Below, one piece after another: positions 15,151 through 28,961 of a stretch of 30,614 bases of DNA. The stretch spans positions 1-30,614 of the IMG/VR virus record IMGVR_UViG_3300022698_000057. One strand, written 5' to 3'. Numbering within the stretch: position 1 is the first letter of the stretch; each line of letters opens with the position of its first letter. Origin of the DNA: a virus. A model generated the notes under the pieces. The model was not told where the DNA came from. It was given only the letters and a program-made list of their open reading frames with translations, and did no database searches. The position numbers were made by a program, and so were the translations under genes.

Positions 15151-15883
15151 TACTAGCCCCTTTTTGTAATTCTACCGCGATATTCCGACAGACCTTGATA
15201 ATGTTCTGGCACGCTTCAATGCGTCGGCTATCAGAGTCCAGCTCGTCAAGGTAGTCCATGAGAGCATCGATGAACGCATCTTTCTCCCCAGCCTGAGATA
15301 GACGTATACGCTCCTTAAATGTCTGTCTTTGCTGTTCCTTTTCAACGATCTCTTCAAGCAATAGCTCTTCAACTTCATCGAACGGGTCAGTTTCTTTCTC
15401 CCGCCGTTCCCTTTCCTCTTTCAGCTTCTTCCTGGACTCTTCGATCTTGTCTTGCCGTTTCTTTTCTGCCTCTGCCAGCTTGTCATCGGTACCGCGCCGC
15501 CAACCGTCCGGCTTCTTCCCAGTCTTCAGGTACTCCATCACCCGGACCCGAGCCTTCTTCTCTTCGGACTGTTTCTCAGCCGTCTCGATCTGGGCGACCT
15601 TCTGGTAGGCGTCCTGCAAATTCCAACTTGATTGGATTTTGTTCTGGTGTCGGAACAGCCCCATGTACTTACGGGCCGTCTCATCTGAGAACCGGCAGTT
15701 TTCCTCAATCCACGGGAGAAACTCGCCGTGATCCAGCGAGTCCTTCACGGTCGTCAGTATCTTCCCGGCACGGATCGCGTCCTGCACAGTACGCCTGAGC
15801 GATCTCTCGATCTGCTGGTGGAGCCGGTTCAGTTCAGCCGATGCGGTCTCTATCGAGACCTTTGGATAAGTGATCTCGTTCAT
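15143..15883 (-). CDS. DUF3102 family protein
   Basis: The 246-residue protein opens with the DUF3102 pattern: ELNRLHQQIERSLRRTVQDA, IRAGKILTTVKDSLDHGEFL, PWIEENCRFSDETARKYMGL (about 15-75). That family resembles a helix-turn-helix module seen near phage replication genes and in ParB/Noc-related settings. Residues 100-190 form a long highly charged helix rich in Glu, Lys and Arg, probably a coiled coil. The C-terminus is another helix with DALMDYLDELDSDSRRIE. Role unknown, probably DNA-binding. It overlaps the antirepressor gene by four bases. Confidence 0.72.
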   Translation of the reverse strand: MNEITYPKVSIETASAELNRLHQQIERSLRRTVQDAIRAGKILTTVKDSLDHGEFLPWIEENCRFSDETARKYMGLFRHQNKIQSSWNLQDAYQKVAQIETAEKQSEEKKARVRVMEYLKTGKKPDGWRRGTDDKLAEAEKKRQDKIEESRKKLKEERERREKETDPFDEVEELLLEEIVEKEQQRQTFKERIRLSQAGEKDAFIDALMDYLDELDSDSRRIEACQNIIKVCRNIAVELQKGASNG

Positions 15884-16386
15884 TCTTCAATCACCAACCG
15901 GGCATATCCAGCCCATCGTTCCATGCGGAAAAGACGGTTGTCGTCCTTGTACTTCTTCGTGAGAAGTTCCAGTCCTTTGCCGCTGAACACAACGTGATCC
16001 GTGACTCTCGTCTGTCCAGCCTTAGTCTGATAATAGTGAGATTTGGTGTGTCCATAACCGCGGTCTTGGTAGGCTTTCGACATTCGATATCCCTCGGCCC
16101 CACGGGAAACAATGATGCCCTCTGCTTCAAAAAGAAGATGGAGAATGTTTTGGCCCATTACCCTTGACTTGCCCTCGTTCTCCGGGAGATAAGGGATCTG
16201 AAGATGTTCCGCGACCCTTGCCATCGAGTAGTCATCACGATTCTCATAGATGATCGCATTCTCGCCTTTGAGTTCAGCATTCTCTCGGACAAGGACAAGC
16301 ATTTTAGTCTGTAGGTAACCTGGGTCTCTAAGCCGTCGCTCAACCTCCGCTTCAACCCTTTTTTCAATCTCTTCTTTGTCGCTCAT
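15880..16386 (-). CDS. Phage antirepressor-like protein with KilAC domain
   Basis: This 168-residue protein lacks the N-terminal Bro/ANT part and has a charged helical opening (MSDKEEIEKRVEAEVERRL), a spacer helix LVRENAELKGENA, and a C-terminal KilAC-like domain. The domain contains MARVAEHLQIPYL, a LHLLFEAEGIIVSRG helix-turn region, a beta part with YYQTKAGQTRVTDHVVFSGKGLELL, and a short end. KilAC domains occur in antirepressors and DNA-binding regulators that act on phage repressors or on late-gene promoters. GGAGGATCT precedes the ATG. A terminator-like hairpin lies just upstream (16406-16441), so this gene may start a separate expression unit. Confidence 0.65.
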   Translation of the reverse strand: MSDKEEIEKRVEAEVERRLRDPGYLQTKMLVLVRENAELKGENAIIYENRDDYSMARVAEHLQIPYLPENEGKSRVMGQNILHLLFEAEGIIVSRGAEGYRMSKAYQDRGYGHTKSHYYQTKAGQTRVTDHVVFSGKGLELLTKKYKDDNRLFRMERWAGYARLVIEE

Positions 16387-16405
16387 AGATCCTCCTTCAA
16401 AAACA

Positions 16406-16441
16406 GGCCCCTCCCCGAGGAATAACAGTTGGTTCGGGGCC
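16406..16441 (-). terminator. Terminator-like hairpin between SSB and antirepressor genes
   Basis: On the minus strand GGCCCC (16441-16436) can pair with GGGGCC (16411-16406), and the overlapping CCCCGA/TCGGGG pairing is an alternative. The stem is followed by TGTTTTTG, a short U-rich run. This fits a weak intrinsic terminator or attenuator read in the direction of the genes, placed just in front of the antirepressor ribosome site. Confidence 0.4.
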
Positions 16442-16477
16442 AAAAACTGCCGCAATCTAAGTATTCCCTACGACTTT

Positions 16478-17287: not shown

Positions 17288-17866
17288 TCAGACCTCCTGT
17301 GCGCTCTTCGACGCACGTATGTGGCGATGGATCTCTTCTCTCACCGCCTCGTCCGCGAACGGCCCTTGCATGATGTTGACATGCTTGCCCCCGTTCTTTT
17401 CGATGCACCACAGCCAGTGTCTTTCATACACGGTTGCGTTGCCCTTCATCGCTCTCACTCGAACCCTCTCTCGTTCCGCATGGTTCAGCTCTTCATCTTG
17501 CTCAGCAAGTAGCTTGTCTGGATCCACCTTCATTGCAGATCCGACTTTCCGCAGAAACATTGCCCACGATTCTCTCGTACCGCCAGAACTCTCGGGCGGT
17601 GGCAACGCCTTCTGCTTCGGCTCTGCATATACCTCTGGCCGATCCATCTTCGATGCTGCCCGCTCGACGTCGGCAAGCTCAGGTAGGTTCCTTCCGCGAC
17701 CAGAAAAGCTCCTGGTCACCTCATCGAATAGCGCCTCCGCGTACCGATACGGAACATTGTCAAACCGATCGAGTATCGAAGCTCGCACCCGATCCGTATA
17801 CGATAGGCTTCGCTCTGTCGAGTAGTACTGTTCGAATGCCTTACAGAGATTCATCCCCTCGCTCAT
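17288..17866 (-). CDS. Possible helicase loader/inhibitor (G39P-like)
   Basis: This 192-residue protein follows the initiator and overlaps it by four bases. The first 75 residues (CKAFEQYYSTERSLSYTDRV ... PYRYAEALFDEVTRSF ... RNLPELADVERAA) are helical and resemble the N-terminal part of phage helicase loaders such as SPP1 G39P in pattern (short helices, then LPxxADV). The middle is Pro/Gly-rich and the C-terminus is helical with HWLWCIEKNGGKHVNIMQGP. No Walker motif is seen, so it is not a DnaC-type ATPase. The replication role is inferred from order and pattern only. Confidence 0.5.
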   Translation of the reverse strand: MSEGMNLCKAFEQYYSTERSLSYTDRVRASILDRFDNVPYRYAEALFDEVTRSFSGRGRNLPELADVERAASKMDRPEVYAEPKQKALPPPESSGGTRESWAMFLRKVGSAMKVDPDKLLAEQDEELNHAERERVRVRAMKGNATVYERHWLWCIEKNGGKHVNIMQGPFADEAVREEIHRHIRASKSAQEV

Positions 17867-18663
17867 CGGCGCTGCCTATTGTTCCAGTCCTCTTCGGTCT
17901 CATAGACAACACCTGTCTTCGGATCAACGGCGAACGGCTGCTTTCTTTTGTGGACCTCGACACGCATCTTCTGTTCGATGTCTCGCCAGTACCGCACAAG
18001 TCGCGACGGCAGAAACGGCTGCTCCCGCCAGAACCGATCCCCGCCTCTCTCGATCATCCACTGAAACGCCCGAACCATCGCCACAGCTTTTCCCTGCGGA
18101 TCTTCCGGATTGTCACGAATAACAAGCTGGCGAATCTTCTTCACCATCTGCCGTTCTTTCCCGAAGTTGGGATAGTCGCCAGACTCAAGAAACAGTTCAT
18201 CGATCGTCTTGTCGATTGGATGCTTCATCGGTGTGGGTGACGCCACAGGCGTATTCTCTGGTTCTATATTAGTCTGGTTCAATGGATCTGGTTCTTGGTC
18301 ATCTGGTGACCAAGGGTTGGTCATCTGGTGACCAAGGGGTTGGTCATCCTGTGACCTACCCTGTAACGATGATGCCAATCTGTAGATAGTGGACTCATAC
18401 CGCTGCGTTGTTTTGTCCCACCGACGTTCTATCGTCAACCACCCAAGTTGCTCCAATTCGACAAGCGCTTGCTTGACCTTATTCCGACTCGCCCCCGTCA
18501 GTTTTGCCAATCGCGACTGACTCGGCCATGCGAAACGCTCTTTGTTGGCATGCATAGCAATCGCGCTGAATAGTGCGATGTGATAGACGTTTGTCCGCCC
18601 ATCTTTGATCAGTTCGTCTGGCACCTGAAAGAATGGCACCTCGTAGCGCAGGGTGTCTTTCAT
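17863..18663 (-). CDS. Replication initiator (O-like, winged helix), gene carries origin iterons
   Basis: The 266-residue protein has an N-terminal winged-helix domain (about residues 20-98: FQVPDELIKDGRTNVYHIAL ... PSQSRLAKLTGASRNKVKQA ... LEQLGWLTIERRWD), a linker rich in Asn, Pro, Asp and Gln (105-150), and a helical C-terminal domain (GKERQMVKKIRQLVIRDN ...). The architecture matches phage O-like initiators that bind the origin and load the helicase through partners. Three palindromic iterons lie inside the linker coding sequence. GGGAGGGAG precedes the ATG at 18663. Its transcript should start at the promoter near 18782, with a folded leader between. The open frame upstream (to 18777) is within that leader. 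Confidence 0.77.
   Translation of the reverse strand: MKDTLRYEVPFFQVPDELIKDGRTNVYHIALFSAIAMHANKERFAWPSQSRLAKLTGASRNKVKQALVELEQLGWLTIERRWDKTTQRYESTIYRLASSLQGRSQDDQPLGHQMTNPWSPDDQEPDPLNQTNIEPENTPVASPTPMKHPIDKTIDELFLESGDYPNFGKERQMVKKIRQLVIRDNPEDPQGKAVAMVRAFQWMIERGGDRFWREQPFLPSRLVRYWRDIEQKMRVEVHKRKQPFAVDPKTGVVYETEEDWNNRQRR
18295..18358. repeat. Three palindromic iterons, probable replication origin
   Basis: Three copies of TTGGTCATCTGGTGACCAA, an inverted repeat with TTGGTCA and TGACCAA arms around TCTGG, start at 18295, 18317 and 18340. The first two are identical over 19 bases; the third is diverged at the right arm. Spacings of 22 and 23 bases put all copies on one face of the helix. They sit in the linker of the initiator gene, like the lambda ori iterons in O. 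The stretch 18250-18294 just beyond (on the downstream, low-coordinate side) is relatively AT-rich and could be the unwinding site. Confidence 0.75.
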
Positions 18664-18681
18664 GCTCCCTCCCAAAAGAAA

Positions 18682-18746
18682 GCGCCCCCGGTTGGGCACC
18701 CCGAAAGGCTGGACGTCGAAACGTTCCTTTCGGCAACCGGGAGCGC
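18682..18746 (-). promoter_or_regulatory. Long leader hairpin upstream of the initiator ribosome site
   Basis: On the minus strand GCGCTCCCGGTTG (18746-18734) pairs with CAACCGGGGGCGC (18694-18682). CCGAAAGG (18733-18726) then pairs with CCTTTCGG (18708-18701), and a small ACGT/ACGT stem encloses a UUCG loop. Six nucleotides, GGTGCC (18700-18695), bulge out on the 3' side. The single non-Watson-Crick pair is G-U in the minus-strand RNA but would be C-A on the plus strand, so the RNA reading is favoured. The stem is followed by TTTCTTTT and the ribosome site, a terminator/attenuator-like layout. Confidence 0.7.
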
Positions 18747-18781
18747 AAGTATTATCGGCTTGTCTGCGTGGTGCCAACGCA

Positions 18782-18817
18782 TGGACCCATTATACCAGCT
18801 ATCCATCTTTTTGTGAA
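18782..18817 (-). promoter_or_regulatory. Sigma70-type promoter for the replication operon
   Basis: On the minus strand a -35 box TTCACA (18817-18812, five of six consensus bases) is followed after exactly 17 bases by TATAAT (18794-18789). The predicted start is near 18782. The boxes lie over the end of the AbrB-type gene. The transcript would have a leader of about 119 nt before the initiator ATG at 18663. Confidence 0.75.
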
Positions 18818-18996
18818 TGGACTTCGCGGATCCGGGCAACCAGATTCTCACCGTCGTAAAACACGTCAGCCTCAAGATCCTGGTTGCGATCGATACCCGC
18901 TACGACGAAGAACGCCGGCGGGATTGTCAGCCTCATGGATCCGCCAGTCTTGTTGACTTTCGCTGGCTTTTCAGATACCGGCAGTTTCATGTTCAT
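18799..18996 (-). CDS. AbrB/SpoVT-type DNA-binding protein
   Basis: A 65-residue protein that fits the swapped-hairpin AbrB fold: KPAKVNKTGGSMRLTIPPAF, then GIDRNQDLEADVFYDGENLV and a short end. The SMRLTIPPAF strand is the family signature. As antitoxins or transition-state regulators these dimers bind operator DNA. No toxin gene is adjacent (the next genes are the initiator and a nuclease), so it more likely controls phage promoters, including the one that overlaps its own 3' end. The ATG at 18996 follows GGAAGGAG and is two bases after the upstream stop. Confidence 0.78.
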   Translation of the reverse strand: MNMKLPVSEKPAKVNKTGGSMRLTIPPAFFVVAGIDRNQDLEADVFYDGENLVARIREVHSQKDG

Positions 18997-18998
18997 CA

Positions 18999-19988
18999 CT
19001 ACTCCTTCCCATCGCTTCCCGCCGATAGGTACGGGTTCCCAATCTTCACGCAGATGTCTTTCAGACCACAGTATCGTTCACATCTGCGCCCGTCCCACGC
19101 CTCTTCTTTCGTGCATGGCGGTGGAGCGTTCTCAATCACCGCCTGTTCGTAATCCCGCCCAGCCTCGACGGACATTCGATATCCTTCGTACGCCGACAGT
19201 AGCGCATCGCGCTTCTTGTTGAAGTACTCCATGACCTTCTCATCATCCATCTTCGGGATCCAGAACGAATACGTGTTGTGCTCAACCCCGCGACTCCGCG
19301 CCGCCTGGGTGCCTCCGTCTCTCACCGGCACGAAGATACGCATACGAGAAATCTTCACCGGCTCACCGTCGACCTCAAGCTCTGCTTCGGCGCGGATCCG
19401 ATAGTGGTTCAGTTGCAAATCCCATTCCGGTACTTCCCGATTTCCAGGGTCCATCTCGTAGTAGGTTTCCGTTCGTGGGTCGCCCTTCTGGAAGCCGTTT
19501 CCGCTCCGTTTGTACAGCACCGGATTGCCAGCCTCATCCACCATTGGCCGCTCACGCTTCACGAGCCCTAAGCCCTTCAGCACCTTGTAAGATCCTGAGA
19601 CTTTGTAGTCGTCGAGAATGAACTTTCCCGGAGCCTGGGGATCTTCTTCCAGATGATCAGCGACTCCGCTAATCTCACCCTGATCAAAGAACGTCTCTGC
19701 AAGATCGCCCCGAAGCTTCGCTTGCCGCTCCATCTTTGAATGCCCTCGGCTCCCGATGATCCTGAACGCCTGTTGATCTGGGTCAATCGCATAGTCGACA
19801 AGGATCTCCAGGTACGCAAGCCGCGTACCGCGAATGAGCTGCGTCGTGCTCGTTGTCCCTCGCCACTCCCGATTTGACGCACATTCCATGAGGTACGGTG
19901 TCGGATACTGCTCGATCAACAATCCTTCGTTGATCACCGTCTCAGCTTCCATCAGTTCGCCGTCTGGCATAATGAACCACTTGATCAT
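18999..19988 (-). CDS. Cas4/AddB-like PD-(D/E)XK exonuclease with iron-sulfur cysteines
   Basis: The 329-residue protein has a RecB-type nuclease core: His83 (GSRGHSKMER), Asp111 (ISGVADHLEE) and FILDDYKVSG with Asp127 and Lys129. A cysteine near the N-terminus (PYLMECASNREWRG, Cys36) and three near the C-terminus (Cys292, 303, 307 and 313, of which three would ligate) reproduce the arrangement that holds a 4Fe-4S cluster in Cas4 and AddB. It lies in a recombination group with a putative annealing protein and an HNH protein. A lambda-exo-like role (making 3' tails for annealing) is plausible. No cas genes or CRISPR arrays are in the window. The ATG overlaps the previous stop by four bases. 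Confidence 0.78.
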   Translation of the reverse strand: MIKWFIMPDGELMEAETVINEGLLIEQYPTPYLMECASNREWRGTTSTTQLIRGTRLAYLEILVDYAIDPDQQAFRIIGSRGHSKMERQAKLRGDLAETFFDQGEISGVADHLEEDPQAPGKFILDDYKVSGSYKVLKGLGLVKRERPMVDEAGNPVLYKRSGNGFQKGDPRTETYYEMDPGNREVPEWDLQLNHYRIRAEAELEVDGEPVKISRMRIFVPVRDGGTQAARSRGVEHNTYSFWIPKMDDEKVMEYFNKKRDALLSAYEGYRMSVEAGRDYEQAVIENAPPPCTKEEAWDGRRCERYCGLKDICVKIGNPYLSAGSDGKE

Positions 19989-20869
19989 GTTTCCTCCATG
20001 TCTTCGTACAGGTCTTCGGGCTTCGCGATCGGATCGTAACCGAGCCGTTGTCGCGCCGTGTTGACCTTGCCAATGAGATGCGGATACGCCTCAAGCATAT
20101 CCACCCAACCTTTTGTGTGCTGCAATCCAAGGTGGATCTCAGAGGACAGGTGGAGATAATTCCACGTCTCATGACATTCACCACCCGCACCACGGCTCAC
20201 GATATGAGCCAAGTGTCCTTCTCCCGGCTCCAGGTGCCGCAGCGTTGCCTCGCAGAACGGAACTCGCTGACGGTACTCGTCAAGACTCGCATACGTTTCC
20301 TCAAGCCCATCTGTCTTCAGTTTGGACCGCCACTGCCGCCACTCGATGTAGTAGTTTTTGATCTCGTTGCTGTTCTCCATGTGCAGCCCCGCCATCGACA
20401 GCTCTCGAAACGCTCCCTCGATTACGCCCGAAAGTTCGATCGTTGTCATTTGACTCGCAGTTTTCACCACCTCCTTTTCGCGACCGTCCGGAAGGATCGC
20501 CCGCGTCCGCGGCGCGTACAATTCCAACAGCCCGTGGTAATACCCGTCGATCAATTCCTTGTCGTGCTTACCTTCTTGATGTAGTGCCATGACTTTGCAC
20601 AGCGAGAACAGAAGGGCCAATTGATCGAGCGTCTTTGATCGATACCACTTGCGAAATGCAAGCGCCATCGGTGTCTTGCGCCAAGCAGGACGATCTGTCC
20701 AATCATTGACCCATGCCCGTACATCGTCGCGTGACGACGGGTCTACCCGCACAACGAGCAATCCCGTTTTCTCTGCACGAAGATCCTCGACGTATCGTTC
20801 ACCGTCCTCTTTTCTGATCTCTACCGCCGTCGCAGCAACCATTGTCGCCTTGACGTTCTCGATCTTCAT
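19985..20869 (-). CDS. Putative HNH nuclease (HNHc_6-like) of the recombination group
   Basis: The 294-residue protein has a mostly helical N-terminal part (with LDQLALLFSLCKVMALHQEG and IEWRQWRSKLKTDG) and a C-terminal HNH-type region: Cys206, HLAHIVSRGAGGE (His219, His222), WNYLHLSSEIH (Asn237, His240, His246) and LGLQHTKGW. The pattern matches phage HNHc proteins often beside SSB and annealing genes, thought to process recombination intermediates. The N-terminal half resembles NinB-like proteins in pattern only. The ATG at 20869 has GGAGGGAG upstream and overlaps the previous stop (ATGA). Confidence 0.7.
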   Translation of the reverse strand: MKIENVKATMVAATAVEIRKEDGERYVEDLRAEKTGLLVVRVDPSSRDDVRAWVNDWTDRPAWRKTPMALAFRKWYRSKTLDQLALLFSLCKVMALHQEGKHDKELIDGYYHGLLELYAPRTRAILPDGREKEVVKTASQMTTIELSGVIEGAFRELSMAGLHMENSNEIKNYYIEWRQWRSKLKTDGLEETYASLDEYRQRVPFCEATLRHLEPGEGHLAHIVSRGAGGECHETWNYLHLSSEIHLGLQHTKGWVDMLEAYPHLIGKVNTARQRLGYDPIAKPEDLYEDMEET

Positions 20870-21072
20870 CACTCCCTCCACTCAAGACAGCCGGGAGTAT
20901 CGCACCAGCCGTGTGATTTCCACGTCCAGCCGTTGATCCCGTATCTGATCCTGCCTGTCTCGCAGACAGGACACTTCACGTATCCGTCCACGTTTCTGTG
21001 GAACTTCTTGTCCATCCGGTGTTCCCGTTTCAGCCGAGACACCAGCAGCCGTATCTCTTGGTCACGATCCAT
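20869..21072 (-). CDS. Zinc-finger-like small protein
   Basis: The 67-residue product has a basic helix, then VKCPVCETGRIRYGINGW, a short spacer, and WCDTPGCLEWRE. The CPxC...NG...C.T.GCxxW pattern is a known phage/integrative-element zinc-finger motif. It likely binds one zinc ion. The function is not known. It lies between the annealing-like and HNH genes. I use the second of two close ATGs (21072), for which AAGGG is better placed; it overlaps the upstream gene by 11 bases. Confidence 0.68.
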   Translation of the reverse strand: MDRDQEIRLLVSRLKREHRMDKKFHRNVDGYVKCPVCETGRIRYGINGWTWKSHGWCDTPGCLEWRE

Positions 21073-23633: not shown

Positions 23634-23705
23634 GTGCTTTCTCCTGTTGAATGGTCACTCCCCGTGGAGCAGAGGCGATGCCCCCGACCGATAGAGCCCT
23701 CCTCA

Positions 23706-23772
23706 AAGCGAGGCGGGGAGTCGAACCCCGCTCACCCCGACACGTTCCGCGCAAGCACGCGCCAGCTCGCTT
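23706..23772 (-). other. tRNA-like structure, possible degenerate tRNA or attachment core
   Basis: On the minus strand AAGCGAG (23772-23766) can pair with CTCGCTT (23712-23706), closing a 67-nt segment. Just inside the 3' side lies a strong T-arm: GCGGGG (23731-23726), loop TTCGACT, CCCCGC (23718-23713). TTCGACT is a normal T-loop. A GCGC/GCGC stem could be a D-arm, but I find no 7-base anticodon loop on a 5-pair stem, no variable loop and no CCA. It is thus not a normal tRNA. It is the only clear structure in the 145-base gap between the DUF932 and GHKL genes. Confidence 0.35.
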
Positions 23773-23778
23773 GGCCGA

Positions 23779-24945
23779 TTAGAGTGTCCAGCCCTCCACT
23801 TCTGCTCGATCAATCAATTCGCCTGAAAATGCGTCCGCAAGCGTCTGCGGGAAGTACTCTCGGTGCGCCTCAAAGAAATCCCTCAGCACCGATACGGGAT
23901 CTTTCTTTTCGACCTCAGGCAAACCGGCAACCCACCGATTGAATCCCTTACTCCGAAGGATCGCCTTCATGATCACCGGTGAGACAACGACGACTTTTAC
24001 CACGCCGCCGTAGTTCATTCTGATCTCATCGGCACGAAATTCAGCATCAACCGGATACGCCTTCTCGCCGTATTGTTCGCGGAACTCCTGGTAGATAGTC
24101 TCGTTCGCCTTTTCGAGCATCGGCCCCGCGTGTTGTACAAGGTATTCGACCTCGTTACTCGCTTGCCGCATTGTTTCCAGCACGTACTTTTCAGCTTGAA
24201 GGTCAAGGCTGTTCAGCAGTTTCCCGATTTCCCAATTGGTATCGAACGAGCTCACCCGCTGCCGATCTCTGTCCAGGTGCATGCAGTCAGGATCGAAATC
24301 GTAGCCGTAGAGATACCGCTGATTCAGCGCCTGGACGAACAACCCACCGACATACAGTCGGCCCATTTCTGAGTCGTCAGTCAGCAACCAGCCGTTCTCT
24401 CCGCGCCATTCCTCTCCGCTATCGTGGAGAAACCGCACGTTCTTCTGTACGATCTCCCAATCAGACGACAACACGTTCGACACGATGAATCGCAGCGCCG
24501 TCGCCTCCGGGTTCACGTTCTCGTTGATCCAGACCCGCATCACGTCGACCATCAAAGCTTCGTGTTTCTCGAAGCTCACCGTCCAAACGTCCGGTCCATT
24601 CTCAACTATGACCTCGCGATCGCACCGAGTAAGCGCGAGAAGCGCCAACTTGTACCCCTCTCCGTGTTGCCCGATCGTATCCCCACCCTCGCTCTTCGTT
24701 CCTTCGCCAAGTAACAGCGTCCGGGGATCCAGCGTCGTGTTCGCGTTCTCGACGAGCAACACCTCGTTTTCCTCGTCGTATGAAATGGTGGCGTGGTACT
24801 TGCTCATGACCCGCATCACCGGATCACGGCCCTCTTCCGTTTCACGCTCCCGATCGAGCGCGTTCTGCACCAGCTCTCGGGCACCCTCCCACAGGCGCCA
24901 ACCGGGAACGTAGTTCTTACTGATTGTCAGATCAATGTACTTCAT
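23779..24945 (-). CDS. GHKL (HSP90/histidine-kinase fold) ATPase
   Basis: The 388-residue protein starts MKYIDLTISKNYVPGWRLWE. The ATP-binding fold is shown by the N-box, ARELVQNALDRE (Glu24, Asn28, Asp31), and the glycine-rich lid, GGDTIGQHGEGYKLALLALT (88-107). The second acidic motif (normally DxGxG) is replaced by VENANTTLDP. No phosphoacceptor His or response-regulator partner is present, so it is not a sensor kinase. The C-terminal half (about 200-388) is alpha/beta with no domain I know. Stand-alone phage GHKL proteins are of unknown function; chaperone, topoisomerase-like or defence-related roles are all possible. The start overlaps the SSB-like stop by four bases. Confidence 0.8.
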   Translation of the reverse strand: MKYIDLTISKNYVPGWRLWEGARELVQNALDRERETEEGRDPVMRVMSKYHATISYDEENEVLLVENANTTLDPRTLLLGEGTKSEGGDTIGQHGEGYKLALLALTRCDREVIVENGPDVWTVSFEKHEALMVDVMRVWINENVNPEATALRFIVSNVLSSDWEIVQKNVRFLHDSGEEWRGENGWLLTDDSEMGRLYVGGLFVQALNQRYLYGYDFDPDCMHLDRDRQRVSSFDTNWEIGKLLNSLDLQAEKYVLETMRQASNEVEYLVQHAGPMLEKANETIYQEFREQYGEKAYPVDAEFRADEIRMNYGGVVKVVVVSPVIMKAILRSKGFNRWVAGLPEVEKKDPVSVLRDFFEAHREYFPQTLADAFSGELIDRAEVEGWTL

Positions 24946-25283
24946 GCCGTTGTCTTCCCCTTTCCTCTGAACTCCACATGCTCTGCAACAATGGTGACTT
25001 TCGATCGTGGGTGCCCTTCTCTGTTTTCCCACCTGTCTTGTTTCAGGCGACCAACGACGCGCACGCCGCGCCCCTGGAAAAGCTCTTCCGAACAGCGCTT
25101 CGCAAGCTTGGCCCAAACCTCGATATCAAAGAACGAGACCTCTTTCTGAAGTTCACCGTCAACCTTGAAAGATCGGTTTGACTCAATCGTGAAGTTGCAA
25201 ACGTCCGTTCCTTTTGGCGTTTGCGCCAATACCGGATCCCGTGTGACGGTTCCTTCAACCAGGATAGAATTGAGACTGTTCAT
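24942..25283 (-). CDS. Second single-stranded DNA-binding (OB-fold) protein
   Basis: The 113 residues fit a bacterial SSB core: NSILVEGTVTRDPVLAQTPK, VCNFTIESNRSFKVDG, SFFDIEVWAKLAKRCSE, GRGVRVVGRLKQDRWENREG and SKVTIVAEHVEFRGK. Unlike the SSB at 16478-16897 it stops after the OB fold; the acidic recruiting tip is missing (it ends KGKTTA). It overlaps the GHKL gene by four bases. A version without the tip could act in recombination or be a dominant-negative partner of the other. GGAGGGAG lies upstream, inside the end of the small gene before. Confidence 0.87.
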   Translation of the reverse strand: MNSLNSILVEGTVTRDPVLAQTPKGTDVCNFTIESNRSFKVDGELQKEVSFFDIEVWAKLAKRCSEELFQGRGVRVVGRLKQDRWENREGHPRSKVTIVAEHVEFRGKGKTTA

Positions 25284-25649: not shown

Positions 25650-26087
25650 CTATAGCCGTCCTTTTTCCAAATAGCTGAAATATCCGCAGCGGGCAACGAT
25701 CACATGATCCAGCACCGGGATGCCGATGATCTCGCCAGCCTCGACGAGACGCTTTGTGATCTGATCATCTTCAGCGCTCGGCTCCACCTGACCAGATGGA
25801 TGATTGTGCGCCACGACGATCGCGACGGCGTTGTCTTTGATCGCGTTGCGAAAGACTTCCCGCGCATGTACCATCGTCCGGTTAACCAGTCCCTTCGTGA
25901 CTGTGCGAACACGAATGACTTCATGAGCGCCATCAAGCTCAATGACGTAGAACCCCTCCGTCTTTGCCTTGATCCTCTTGTCGCCCAGGACAGGAAGCGC
26001 ATCTATCGGCGTTCGTATCCTGCGAGTCTTGTCCTCGCGCTCTGCCGCCCAAACAGCTTTCCACAATTCCGACTTGCTCAGCTCCAT
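25650..26087 (-). CDS. RadC-like JAB/MPN domain protein
   Basis: The 145-residue protein matches the catalytic domain of RadC (UPF0758): FYVIELDGAHEVIRVRTVTK, then NRTMVHAREVFRNAIKDNAV, then VVAHNHPSGQVEPSAEDD (HNHPSG at 94-99, Asp107 or 108), and a final VLDHVIVARCGYFSYLEKGR. The HxH(x)nD zinc motif of JAB metalloproteases is complete. The helix-hairpin-helix part of full-length RadC is missing, as usual in the phage and plasmid versions. The role of RadC proteins is unsettled; a peptidase-like or DNA-related activity has been proposed. AGGAGAGAG precedes the ATG. Confidence 0.88.
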   Translation of the reverse strand: MELSKSELWKAVWAAEREDKTRRIRTPIDALPVLGDKRIKAKTEGFYVIELDGAHEVIRVRTVTKGLVNRTMVHAREVFRNAIKDNAVAIVVAHNHPSGQVEPSAEDDQITKRLVEAGEIIGIPVLDHVIVARCGYFSYLEKGRL

Positions 26088-26565: not shown

Positions 26566-26825
26566 CTCTCCACCTCCATGTGCATTTGAGCGCTCACGTC
26601 GTCGGGGAATTGGTCGCAGTACAGGTCATCCGTTGTTGTTTCCAACCGCAGCACTTTGTAATCTCCGCTCGGGAAAATACGCGATGTCTCGTTTCCGACT
26701 TGTACAACAACCGGCCGGTTCCAATCTCGACACCACGTATACGCAAGATTCCATTGCTCAAGTTCCTTGCCGGGAAACTCATCATCGAATCGATACGGCT
26801 CACTAACCGTCCCCTTACCTGTCAT
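26562..26825 (-). CDS. Hypothetical protein of the small-gene string
   Basis: A 87-residue protein starting MTGKGTVSEPYRFDDEFPGK, with LEQWNLAYTWCRDWNRPVVV and RIFPSGDYKVLRLETTTDDL. The end, MHMEVER, is coded by the ribosome site of the next gene. The ATG at 26825 follows GGAGGTGCAGAG. It is alpha/beta, with no motif I recognise. The upstream open frame to 26957 is in the preceding gene's territory and is ignored. Confidence 0.6.
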   Translation of the reverse strand: MTGKGTVSEPYRFDDEFPGKELEQWNLAYTWCRDWNRPVVVQVGNETSRIFPSGDYKVLRLETTTDDLYCDQFPDDVSAQMHMEVER

Positions 26826-26841
26826 CTCTGCACCTCCATGC

Positions 26842-27036
26842 TTACCGTGTTGGATAGCGTTCGTAACTATGCTCCATCCAACTCTGAACGCTGTCCATTT
26901 CCTTTGCCGCCCGCGCCAGAAACGCTTCTCTCTCGTCACCCTTGTGTAGGCGAGCACTTCTAAGTGCTGCGTCTACCGTGTCAATGAGTGCTTGAAGCTC
27001 GTCCAGGTCCTCGGCAAAACGCTCTGTTCTTGTCAT
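26842..27036 (-). CDS. Small helical hypothetical protein
   Basis: A 64-residue protein starting MTRTERFAEDLDELQALIDT, then a helix with DAALRSARLHKGDEREAFLA and an end reading SYERYPTR. It looks like a helical hairpin. The ATG at 27036 follows GGAGGTGCTGAG; a 16-base gap with the same block separates it from the following gene. No function recognised. Confidence 0.6.
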   Translation of the reverse strand: MTRTERFAEDLDELQALIDTVDAALRSARLHKGDEREAFLARAAKEMDSVQSWMEHSYERYPTR

Positions 27037-27037
27037 C

Positions 27038-27244
27038 TCAGCACCTCCGTGCTTTGCACGCCCTGATGGCAATGCCGCCAAGGATCTGTTCAGCTTCGTG
27101 CAAGGCTTCCCTCGCCAAGCGAGGCCGGTCCCCCAAATAGTCACCCGCCAAATCTTGGCATTCTGACATGATGGTCGTTACCATCCGTTGTAGGACAAGC
27201 GCCCGTGATTCTACAGATACCGCTTTCCTTTCTTTCTCTGTCAC
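27038..27244 (-). CDS. Small helical protein with a GTG start
   Basis: A 68-residue helical protein (VSVESRALVLQRMVTTIMSE, then ARLAREALHEAEQIL-like helix) starting at GTG 27244, which overlaps the previous stop by four bases (GTGA) and follows GGAGGTGCTGAG. It ends IRACKARRC, where the last codons contain the ribosome site of the gene after it. No family recognised; like its neighbours it is probably a short helical bundle. Confidence 0.58.
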   Translation of the reverse strand: MTEKERKAVSVESRALVLQRMVTTIMSECQDLAGDYLGDRPRLAREALHEAEQILGGIAIRACKARRC

Positions 27245-27498
27245 CTCAGCACCTCCATGCTTTCCACGAGCGCTTTTTGCGCTTCTTCCAAAGTCATGCC
27301 TTGATGTACCATCATGCCGTGCAACTTCAGCATATTATCAATGGTGTTCAACTGCGCCCGCATTTCCTTGACTGCCTGAAAACCTTGCGACACCCAATAC
27401 GCAGGCTTATCTTCCATCACCTTTTTGGTCTGCTTGGCTCGGTCGGCCAGTTGGTTCAATAGGAACGATACCTTGAACGTGTTATACCCCTCCGTCAT
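27241..27498 (-). CDS. Small helical hypothetical protein
   Basis: An 85-residue protein starting MTEGYNTFKVSFLLNQLADR, with AKQTKKVMEDKPAYWVSQGF and a last helix MTLEEAQKALVESMEVLR. All-helical by pattern. The end MEVLR is coded by the ribosome site of the next gene. The ATG follows GGAGGTGCAGAT and overlaps the previous stop by four bases. No family recognised. Confidence 0.6.
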   Translation of the reverse strand: MTEGYNTFKVSFLLNQLADRAKQTKKVMEDKPAYWVSQGFQAVKEMRAQLNTIDNMLKLHGMMVHQGMTLEEAQKALVESMEVLR

Positions 27499-27713
27499 AT
27501 CTGCACCTCCACTTCGAGAATCGTAGCGTTGCCAATCTGTTCTTTTACTTCAGCAACTGCTCTCGCCCGCGCTTCGCTATATAGCCCCGTCACATTCACG
27601 CGCTCGGTCGTGAACGCTCCCTTGCGAGTGGCCGTAACGTCAAACCACCAACTGCCAAAGCCTCGTGGCTTATGACCATACTCGGCTTCATACCTCATCG
27701 TGTTTACTCTCAT
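27495..27713 (-). CDS. Small hypothetical protein, first gene after the leader
   Basis: A 72-residue alpha/beta protein: MRVNTMRYEAEYGHKPRGFG, then SWWFDVTATRKGAFTTERVN, then LYSEARARAVAEVKEQIGNA and a final strand. The strand-helix-strand order and central Trp-Trp resemble small phage proteins of unknown role. CAGGAGAGAG precedes the ATG, right after the last leader hairpin. It is the first clear gene of the operon that starts at promoter P2. Confidence 0.62.
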   Translation of the reverse strand: MRVNTMRYEAEYGHKPRGFGSWWFDVTATRKGAFTTERVNVTGLYSEARARAVAEVKEQIGNATILEVEVQI

Positions 27714-27967
27714 CGCTCTCTCCTGTGCCCCGACTTCGGACGGGGCGTGTGGTTTAACAGGGGCCGAAGCCCCTGCCCGTCACCATGTCTCAAGTACGTT
27801 GAAATGGGGTCTCTGTAACGAACTCCGGTGATTTCCGCACCATCATCGCCCGTCCAGCGGGTCATCCATTTCGGTGAACTTTCCAACGCCCTCGCACCAC
27901 CGCAGTAGGAACCCCGTAGGGTTCGGCGTCTCGGTTCCCCGAGGTCAACGTTTTCTCTCGCTGACAT
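27714..27967 (-). ncRNA. Hairpin-rich leader RNA (or 85-residue reading frame)
   Basis: The P2 transcript would cross 254 bases with five compact hairpins in the minus-strand RNA: 27943-27930 (CTCGG-GGAA-CCGAG), 27924-27909 (GAACCC/GGGTTC), 27861-27849 (CCCG/CGGG), 27775-27758 (CAGGGGC, UUCG loop, GCCCCTG) and 27746-27727 (GCCCCG/CGGGGC). The last precedes the ribosome site at 27713. A reading frame from ATG 27967 to 27710 (MSARENVDLGEPRRRTLRGS ...) exists, but that ATG lies at or next to the predicted transcription start and has no ribosome site, so a structured leader is favoured. The frame ends in an ATGA overlap with the next gene, which keeps the coding option open. Confidence 0.5.
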
Positions 27968-28001
27968 CTATAATCATATCATAAGTGGGATTGTTTGTAT
28001 A
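27966..28001 (-). promoter_or_regulatory. Sigma70-type promoter P2 for the rightmost early operon
   Basis: On the minus strand TATACA (28001-27996, four of six -35 bases) and TATGAT (27978-27973, five of six -10 bases) are 17 bases apart, in an AT-rich stretch unlike the rest of the window. The start is predicted near 27967. A second, overlapping TATGAT lies at 27983-27978. Confidence 0.65.
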
Positions 28002-28032: not shown

Positions 28033-28341
28033 CTATTTCTTGGTGTTTTTTGCCTGAATCACGAGGGATCTCTCTCCAAAAGCTACGGCAACCCGATCCC
28101 CGGATTCTATGCCCGCAGCCCGAATGAATCTTCTCGGGAGACTCACCATCAGCTCATCTTTCTGACGCCGAACCGAGTGTAGGCGTCGCGCCTCGATGAT
28201 TGGTTCTTGCGCCCCTCTCTCGACCCATTCTGCGAGCAGCGCAGAAACGCTTAGCCCCGCAGCATGAGCCGATGCCGCGATTCGATCACGCGTCTCTTGC
28301 GGAACAACCGCACAGACTGTCGTGTACCCTTTTGGTATCAT
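28033..28341 (-). CDS. Ribbon-helix-helix plus AbrB fusion regulator
   Basis: The 102-residue protein has two DNA-binding parts. The first (TTVCAVVPQETRDRIAASAH, then LSVSALLAEWVERG) is an Arc/CopG-like ribbon-helix-helix. The second (ELMVSLPRRFIRAAGIESGD, then RVAVAFGERSLVIQ) is an AbrB/SpoVT strand pair. Both dimerise, so the protein could link two operators. It lies between two promoters, P1 driving it and P2 leading away from its end, and probably controls one or both. The end of the window's tail module and the start of the early operon meet here. GGAGGGTC precedes the ATG. No lambda-type CI/Cro pair or integrase is visible. Confidence 0.78.
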   Translation of the reverse strand: MIPKGYTTVCAVVPQETRDRIAASAHAAGLSVSALLAEWVERGAQEPIIEARRLHSVRRQKDELMVSLPRRFIRAAGIESGDRVAVAFGERSLVIQAKNTKK

Positions 28342-28728: not shown

Positions 28729-28961
28729 ATGCTGTCCTCCACCGTCACGATCTGTTCGATCTTCTCAGTCGCCGTCACGATCTGTTCGATCTTCTCAGTC
28801 GCCGTCACAACCTGAGTAACGTACTCGCTTGCCGAGATCACGGTGATCTTTGGGATCCCCGCAACGATCAGCTCCACGTACGCCGAAGGACTCAGCGCCC
28901 AGACGTTGCGAGCGAGTACGCTTCTCTTTGGATACGGTGCTACCGTTGGCGCTACCGTCAT
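28725..28961 (-). CDS. Small tail-module protein with a duplicated repeat
   Basis: A 78-residue protein starting MTVAPTVAPYPKRSVLARNV. The C-terminal third contains two copies of the ten residues VTATEKIEQI coded by two perfect 30-base repeats. The rest has strand-forming AYVELIVAGIPKITVISASE. Probably a short fibrous or connector element of the tail. The start at 28961 overlaps the fibre stop by four bases (ATGA); the frame is open eight codons earlier. Confidence 0.6.
   Translation of the reverse strand: MTVAPTVAPYPKRSVLARNVWALSPSAYVELIVAGIPKITVISASEYVTQVVTATEKIEQIVTATEKIEQIVTVEDSI
28742..28808. repeat. Tandem 30-base repeat, two full copies plus 7 bases
   Basis: The 30-base unit beginning CCGTCACGATCTG at 28742 is repeated exactly at 28772, and a third copy begins at 28802 (CCGTCAC) before diverging. 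The unit is a multiple of three, so copy number changes lengthen or shorten the small tail protein without a frameshift. Confidence 0.85.

Follow-up and report, generated by a model that had tools for sequence, protein, structure and literature searches.

The subject here is the leader of a replication initiator gene, rep, in a phage represented by IMG/VR virus record IMGVR_UViG_3300022698_000057. The entire record, 30,614 bases, was analysed and is referred to here as the window. The product of rep is an initiator by both Pfam and PHROGs, matching PF13730 (HTH_36, 5.8e-11), phrog_270 (1.1e-15) and several O-like families, and the gene itself carries iteron-like repeats. Reading along the minus strand, the order of features is promoter match, hairpin, T-tract, Shine-Dalgarno sequence and the rep ATG at 18663 (Table 1). 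With moderate confidence, the leader is interpreted as an intrinsic-terminator attenuator that would limit transcription of rep.

Table 1. Positions of the rep leader features and of rep itself within the window
Feature	Position	Strand	Remark
Sigma-70-type extended -10 promoter, TTCACA-17-TATAAT, TG before -10	18789..18817	-	11/12 match
Three RTCCAT half-sites overlapping the promoter	18781..18822 (18822-18817 minus, 18801-18806 plus, 18786-18781 minus)		motif picked post hoc
Possible leader frame of 40 codons, opening with an ATG at the predicted +1 (leaderless if translated) and closing with a TGA that overlaps the rep ATG (ATGA)	18660..18782	-	codon score intermediate between genes and off-frames
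Small 5' hairpin, 4-5 bp, loop UGGCACC	18765..18781	-	-4.5 kcal/mol
Long hairpin with a base stem of 13 bp, an inner stem of 8 bp and GGTGCC bulged on the 3' side	18682..18746	-	-38.1 kcal/mol alone
TTTCTTTT tract abutting the stem, intrinsic-terminator-like with the hairpin	18674..18681	-	one of three minus-strand places with at least 7 T in 8
Shine-Dalgarno GGGAGG of rep	18668..18673	-	sequence
Replication initiator (rep)	17863..18663	-	HTH_36; phrog_270 and O-like families
Two further GGTGCCA copies, rep codons 8-10 and 13-15	18619..18640	-	each complementary to all 7 nt of loop UGGCACC
Probable origin iterons inside rep, three 22-bp repeats (TTGGTCAnnnnnTGACCAA type)	18295..18361	.	third copy 73% identical

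Promoter, hairpin and T-tract ahead of rep

The rep promoter is the best in the whole record. Its -35 element (18817-18812) and -10 element (18794-18789) are separated by a 17-base spacer, with the TG one base upstream of the -10, and the predicted +1 is at about 18782. Promoters of at least 11/12 were found at 0.033 per random strand (2 in 60), and none of the 60 strands had one with the TG as well. The near-consensus promoter noticed in an earlier sequence-only reading is present, and its TG is an addition to it. The promoter scan found no minus-strand promoter of at least 9/12 that would start transcription between the long hairpin and rep. The RTCCAT half-sites at the promoter are a possible operator.

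The base stem of the long hairpin pairs GCGCTCCCGGTTG (18746-18734) with CAACCGGGGGCGC (18694-18682) over 13 bp, including one G-U pair. Its inner stem pairs CCGAAAGG with CCTTTCGG, the apex is ACGU-UUCG-ACGU, and the GGTGCC bulge is at 18700-18695. The hairpin, its bulge, the TTTCTTTT tract and the ribosome site that follows are all as that reading had claimed. The minus strand is T-poor (19.3%), and of the just three places in it with at least 7 T in 8, one begins at the first base past the 13-bp stem. With long loops allowed, a 13-bp stem abutting a 7-of-8 T tract, as here with 10 G-C pairs, was present in none of 60 random strands, where the maximum was 12 bp, reached once. The arrangement is that of an intrinsic terminator, a G+C-rich stem followed directly by a U-rich tract. 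The T tract comes after the hairpin in the direction of transcription towards rep, as a terminator there would require, and none follows the hairpin on the opposite strand.

Proposed attenuation of rep and the alternatives

The layout from promoter to terminator is the best-supported part of the leader, and from it we infer transcription start, termination, read-through and any regulation of these. The strong promoter just upstream of rep would start a leader of about 110 nt, folding into the long G+C-rich hairpin that ends in TTTCTTTT and would act as an intrinsic terminator before the rep ribosome site. Because the promoter feeds directly into the terminator-like element, expression of rep from it would need read-through. 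Many transcripts would stop near 18675, rep would be made solely through read-through, and such a simple attenuator would hold the initiator level low. Attenuation of rep, as previously proposed, stands in this simplest form, with a promoter, a terminator-like hairpin with its U-tract, the rep Shine-Dalgarno sequence and no promoter of at least 9/12 past the hairpin; the finer switch proposed with it is unproven. The leader is compact and easy to test.

Several observations weigh against attenuation. A second, weak promoter match (9/12) at 18777-18748 has its predicted start at about 18741, within the 5' arm, and might let some transcription escape the terminator. The plus strand also holds a 13-bp stem (6 G-C) with a T-rich tail, at 26851-26897. 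The leader folds little more stably than shuffled sequences do (z -1.26, with 19 of 200 equal or better), in line with which the best 70-nt segments in three random strands reach -33.4 to -35.8, so that fold energy alone is a modest signal. A standard terminator scan (loop 3-8) does not list the long hairpin because its apical part is long. Among six distant phage rep genes, none has a comparable hairpin and T-tract abutting the start, and one (L160) has short stem-plus-T matches further upstream. No relatives that could show conservation of the leader were found in the collections searched, which may omit records very near the window.

It is possible that the two hairpins interact. The small hairpin pairs GCGT (18780-18777) with ACGC (18769-18766), with U18781-A18765 as a fifth pair and the loop at 18776-18770; it had been described before with its GGCACC loop, at coordinates one base off. 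A kissing pseudoknot between the GGCACC loop and the GGTGCC bulge has been proposed and could be the functional core, tuning termination or translation. The complementarity is exact over six pairs, the duplex of loop UGGCACC and bulge GGUGCC has -11.0 kcal/mol, and the chance of such a kiss for the long hairpin is about 0.1-0.6%. A complementary 6-mer is present in 0.77% of random 40-nt upstream stretches, and within a hairpin loop in 0.095%, while loop-bulge matches per bulged hairpin of random strands come to about 0.6% (9 matches in 25 x 61.6). The real record has one such architecture over both strands. However, such an architecture also turned up once or more in 6 of 25 random strands, and the kiss, suggestive at this site, is therefore not significant for a feature picked record-wide. 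The small 5' hairpin is also not the best local fold, a competing GUUGGC/GCCGAU pairing having -5.8 against -4.5 kcal/mol, and the second GGTGCCA of the coding sequence is a better partner for the loop, one that it takes with near-certainty in the predicted fold of leader and rep start. A kiss could form, but as the core of the leader's function it is unlikely.

The same reading had also suggested that a longer upstream match could invade the long stem. When forced, this pairing has -31.4 kcal/mol against -45.1 for the terminator fold, 13.7 worse, and it is disfavoured at equilibrium. It is nevertheless the best fold transiently, with the RNA 3' end at 18694 and 18690, and is gone at 18686. 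The pairing of GUUGGCACC with GGUGCCCAAC in growing-chain folds with the 3' end at 18694-18690 also speaks for the kiss. On these equilibrium energies, the invasion pairing is a possible pre-emptor-like transient. It is doubtful that the 5' GGCACC strand modulates the terminator, whether by the bulge kiss or by transient antiterminator pairing.

Alternatively, the promoter and terminator may delimit a small-RNA gene. Besides ending transcription, its product of about 108 nt would repress rep in trans, its UGGCACC pairing with the GGTGCCA of rep codons 8-10 and 13-15, as a same-strand analogue of plasmid RNA control. Three GGTGCC and one GGCACC are inside 156 bp, and 18776-18764 is complementary to 18646-18634 at 11 of 13 nt. 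When the leader is folded with the rep start, its 5' strand pairs with the copy at codons 13-15 rather than with the bulge (z -1.83, equalled or bettered by 7 of 200 shuffles). However, a random genome has about 3.4 four-copy clusters of one 6-mer or another, the rep start is bound by 328 of 2000 random leaders no less well than by the real 5' end, and rep is just 10th-11th of 27 gene starts for 5'-end pairing. The EVP..QVP in the rep protein may alone explain the repeats. Such an RNA is quite improbable. The recurrent GGTGCC in the early rep codons and the 40-codon leader frame, neither of them mentioned in the earlier reading, are each not significant alone.

Translation of that frame from the ATG at +1 would give a leaderless leader peptide that melts the hairpin and couples to rep through the ATGA, a mode of action known from leader peptides in I-complex and R1 plasmids. 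All 40 codons are open, from an ATG at the predicted +1 to a stop overlapping the rep start, and this frame has the best codon score of the three. At 0.019 per codon, the score exceeds the 95% point of off-frames but falls near the bottom of the range for true genes (5% point 0.005, median 0.176). The frame is also without a Shine-Dalgarno sequence, and an open frame of such length is common by chance at this composition, as estimated rather than computed. It would be surprising if translation of this frame controlled rep.

The inverted repeat may instead work as DNA, as a protein site, a single-strand initiation structure near the origin, or a means of Rep autorepression through degenerate half-iterons. 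The iteron-like repeats in rep have inverted halves, the third copy being 73% identical, and a lambda-type origin usually sits inside the initiator gene, where these repeats lie. Within the hairpin, TTGGGCACC at 18692-18700 differs at a single position from the iteron half TTGGTCACC. Hairpin and iterons are among the most stable 70-nt segments of the record; in a scan of the record in steps of 10, the iteron block is the most stable and the long hairpin is second in the plus-strand reading and 10th in the minus. However, 13 of the 18 half-site matches with at most one mismatch in the 30.6 kb fall outside the iterons, so one match in the hairpin is near chance. The T-tract on one side only also points to RNA, and the chance that the repeat works as DNA is small.

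Highly improbable is a circuit in which one 5' strand (UUGGCACC) would choose among three GGUGCC copies, in the terminator bulge and in rep codons 8-10 and 13-15, deciding termination in cis and, once released, repressing rep in trans, as a one-promoter, same-strand RNA copy control in a phage without antisense RNA. Translational occlusion of the rep start was rejected, since its opening energy of 14.9 kcal/mol ranks 7 of 26 gene starts and the same leader placed before 25 other genes gives a median of 13.7, which makes the closure of the rep start not special. Rfam 15 covariance models gave no match in 18600-18850 up to E 5, and a ribozyme reading of the leader was dropped, as was an integron attC-like reading of the hairpin, judged by eye, in which the arm order is inverted.

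Other genes and elements, and the search for relatives

The genes with family matches are all on the minus strand, and include a weak portal match, terminase, head morphogenesis, a RuvC-like resolvase, endolysin, RadC and a KilAC antirepressor domain. The RadC-like JAB-domain gene is at 25650-26087 (minus strand; PF04002, 1.9e-39), and the KilAC domain of the same phage is at 15880-16455. The gene at 18799-18999, AbrB/MazE-like by eye, has no support for this from Pfam or from comparison with 28033-28341.

Other elements are found elsewhere in the record. A type-P5 twister self-cleaving ribozyme at 27729-27784 on the minus strand (52.8 bits, against a gathering threshold of 37.6) ends 15 nt before the ATG of the open reading frame at 27495-27713. 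A possible promoter at 28001 would give this frame a leader of about 250 nt with the ribozyme at its end, where cleavage could fall in the 5' untranslated region right before the ribosome site. An intergenic tRNA-like element at 23700-23773 (minus strand) has acceptor-like AAGCGAG/CTCGCTT and a T-arm CGGGGTTCGACTCCCCG; ARAGORN made no call there, and Rfam gave only sub-threshold matches, to mascRNA (19.6 bits) and tRNA-Sec (17.5 bits). Three similar 30-bp repeats (26820-26849, 27031-27060 and 27239-27268) are spaced by about 210 bp, at 80-90% to the middle copy, and sit at or near successive small-gene junctions. A 30-bp exact tandem duplication is present at 28742-28801.

No close relative of the Rep protein was found in viral_contigs, genome_contigs, phages, or the records behind 25 of 36 terminase-relative loci, the best phage match being partial (E 4e-4). 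Six distant phage initiators, aligned with rep, diverged too far for the alignment to serve as a search query. The leader DNA has no match in phages or plasmids. At least 119 stretches in viral_contigs have the pattern TTGGCACC-N50-80-GGTGCCCAA, and among the matches listed none has a 5' stem of at least 4 bp together with a stem of at least 8 bp after the bulge. No relatives were found for the neighbouring genes at 18999-19988, 19985-20881, 17288-17866 and 23779-25116. Terminase relatives in viral_contigs reach at best 44% over most of the protein, with one 36-residue piece at 61%, and those in genomes are distant. No relative close enough for covariation was found in the collections searched. 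A literature search found nothing on this leader element, which is no claim of its absence from print.

Comparison with known systems

In pT181, formation of a terminator-like stem shortly before the repC start is favoured by an 87-nt antisense RNA and countered by a pre-emptor (PMC5703833). Leaders of the pIP501-like plasmids run to about 320 nt, the antisense promoter lying near their middle and a poly-T terminator immediately before rep (PMC5703833). The phage leader likewise has a terminator-like element immediately before the rep start; an upstream pairing that could compete with it is predicted in growing-chain folds, only as a transient. The phage leader differs from these plasmid leaders in its length, about 120 nt against about 320 nt in the pIP501-like plasmids, and in that a strong antisense promoter was not found. 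The best plus-strand promoters opposing the leader are 8/12 (at 18605) and 9/12 (at 18545), which is chance grade, other promoter types being possible. The countertranscript that defines pT181/ColIb-type copy control is therefore not matched, and the proposed likeness to plasmid copy-control leaders extends to the layout but not to this RNA. In addition, the phage gene is an O-like initiator, and its leader is without known relatives.

For the I-complex plasmids, PMC10286972 describes translation of a leader peptide upstream of repA as needed, with an antisense RNA also carried. Titles in the references of PMC10724649 name the ColIb pseudoknot and an rUUGGCG target-loop motif. The phage resembles ColIb-P9 and the I-complex in that the loop of its 5' hairpin is complementary to a downstream element and in a possible leader frame that ends at the rep start. 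The phage loop region begins UUGGC, as may be compared with the rUUGGCG of the cited title (PMC10724649). In contrast to these plasmids, no antisense RNA promoter was found in the phage, its long hairpin is terminator-like and its leader frame is putative.

Among phages, P4 has CI-RNA immunity, in which transcription stops early in the leader of a replication gene and segments of that leader are complementary. Early termination before a phage replication gene and complementary segments in the leader would be common to both, a likeness of layout; a processed immunity RNA is a feature of P4. A lambda-type O gene is likewise an initiator gene with repeats in its own frame, but the phage rep here has its own promoter and leader.

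The leader may work partly like the pT181/pIP501 and I-complex systems, although it is not filed with them. Should the terminator prove real, the phage would control the dose of its initiator through attenuation at the RNA level, a strategy also found in some plasmids. Its replication could then be throttled independently of the early promoters, perhaps, as a speculation, to allow a prophage state like that of a plasmid.
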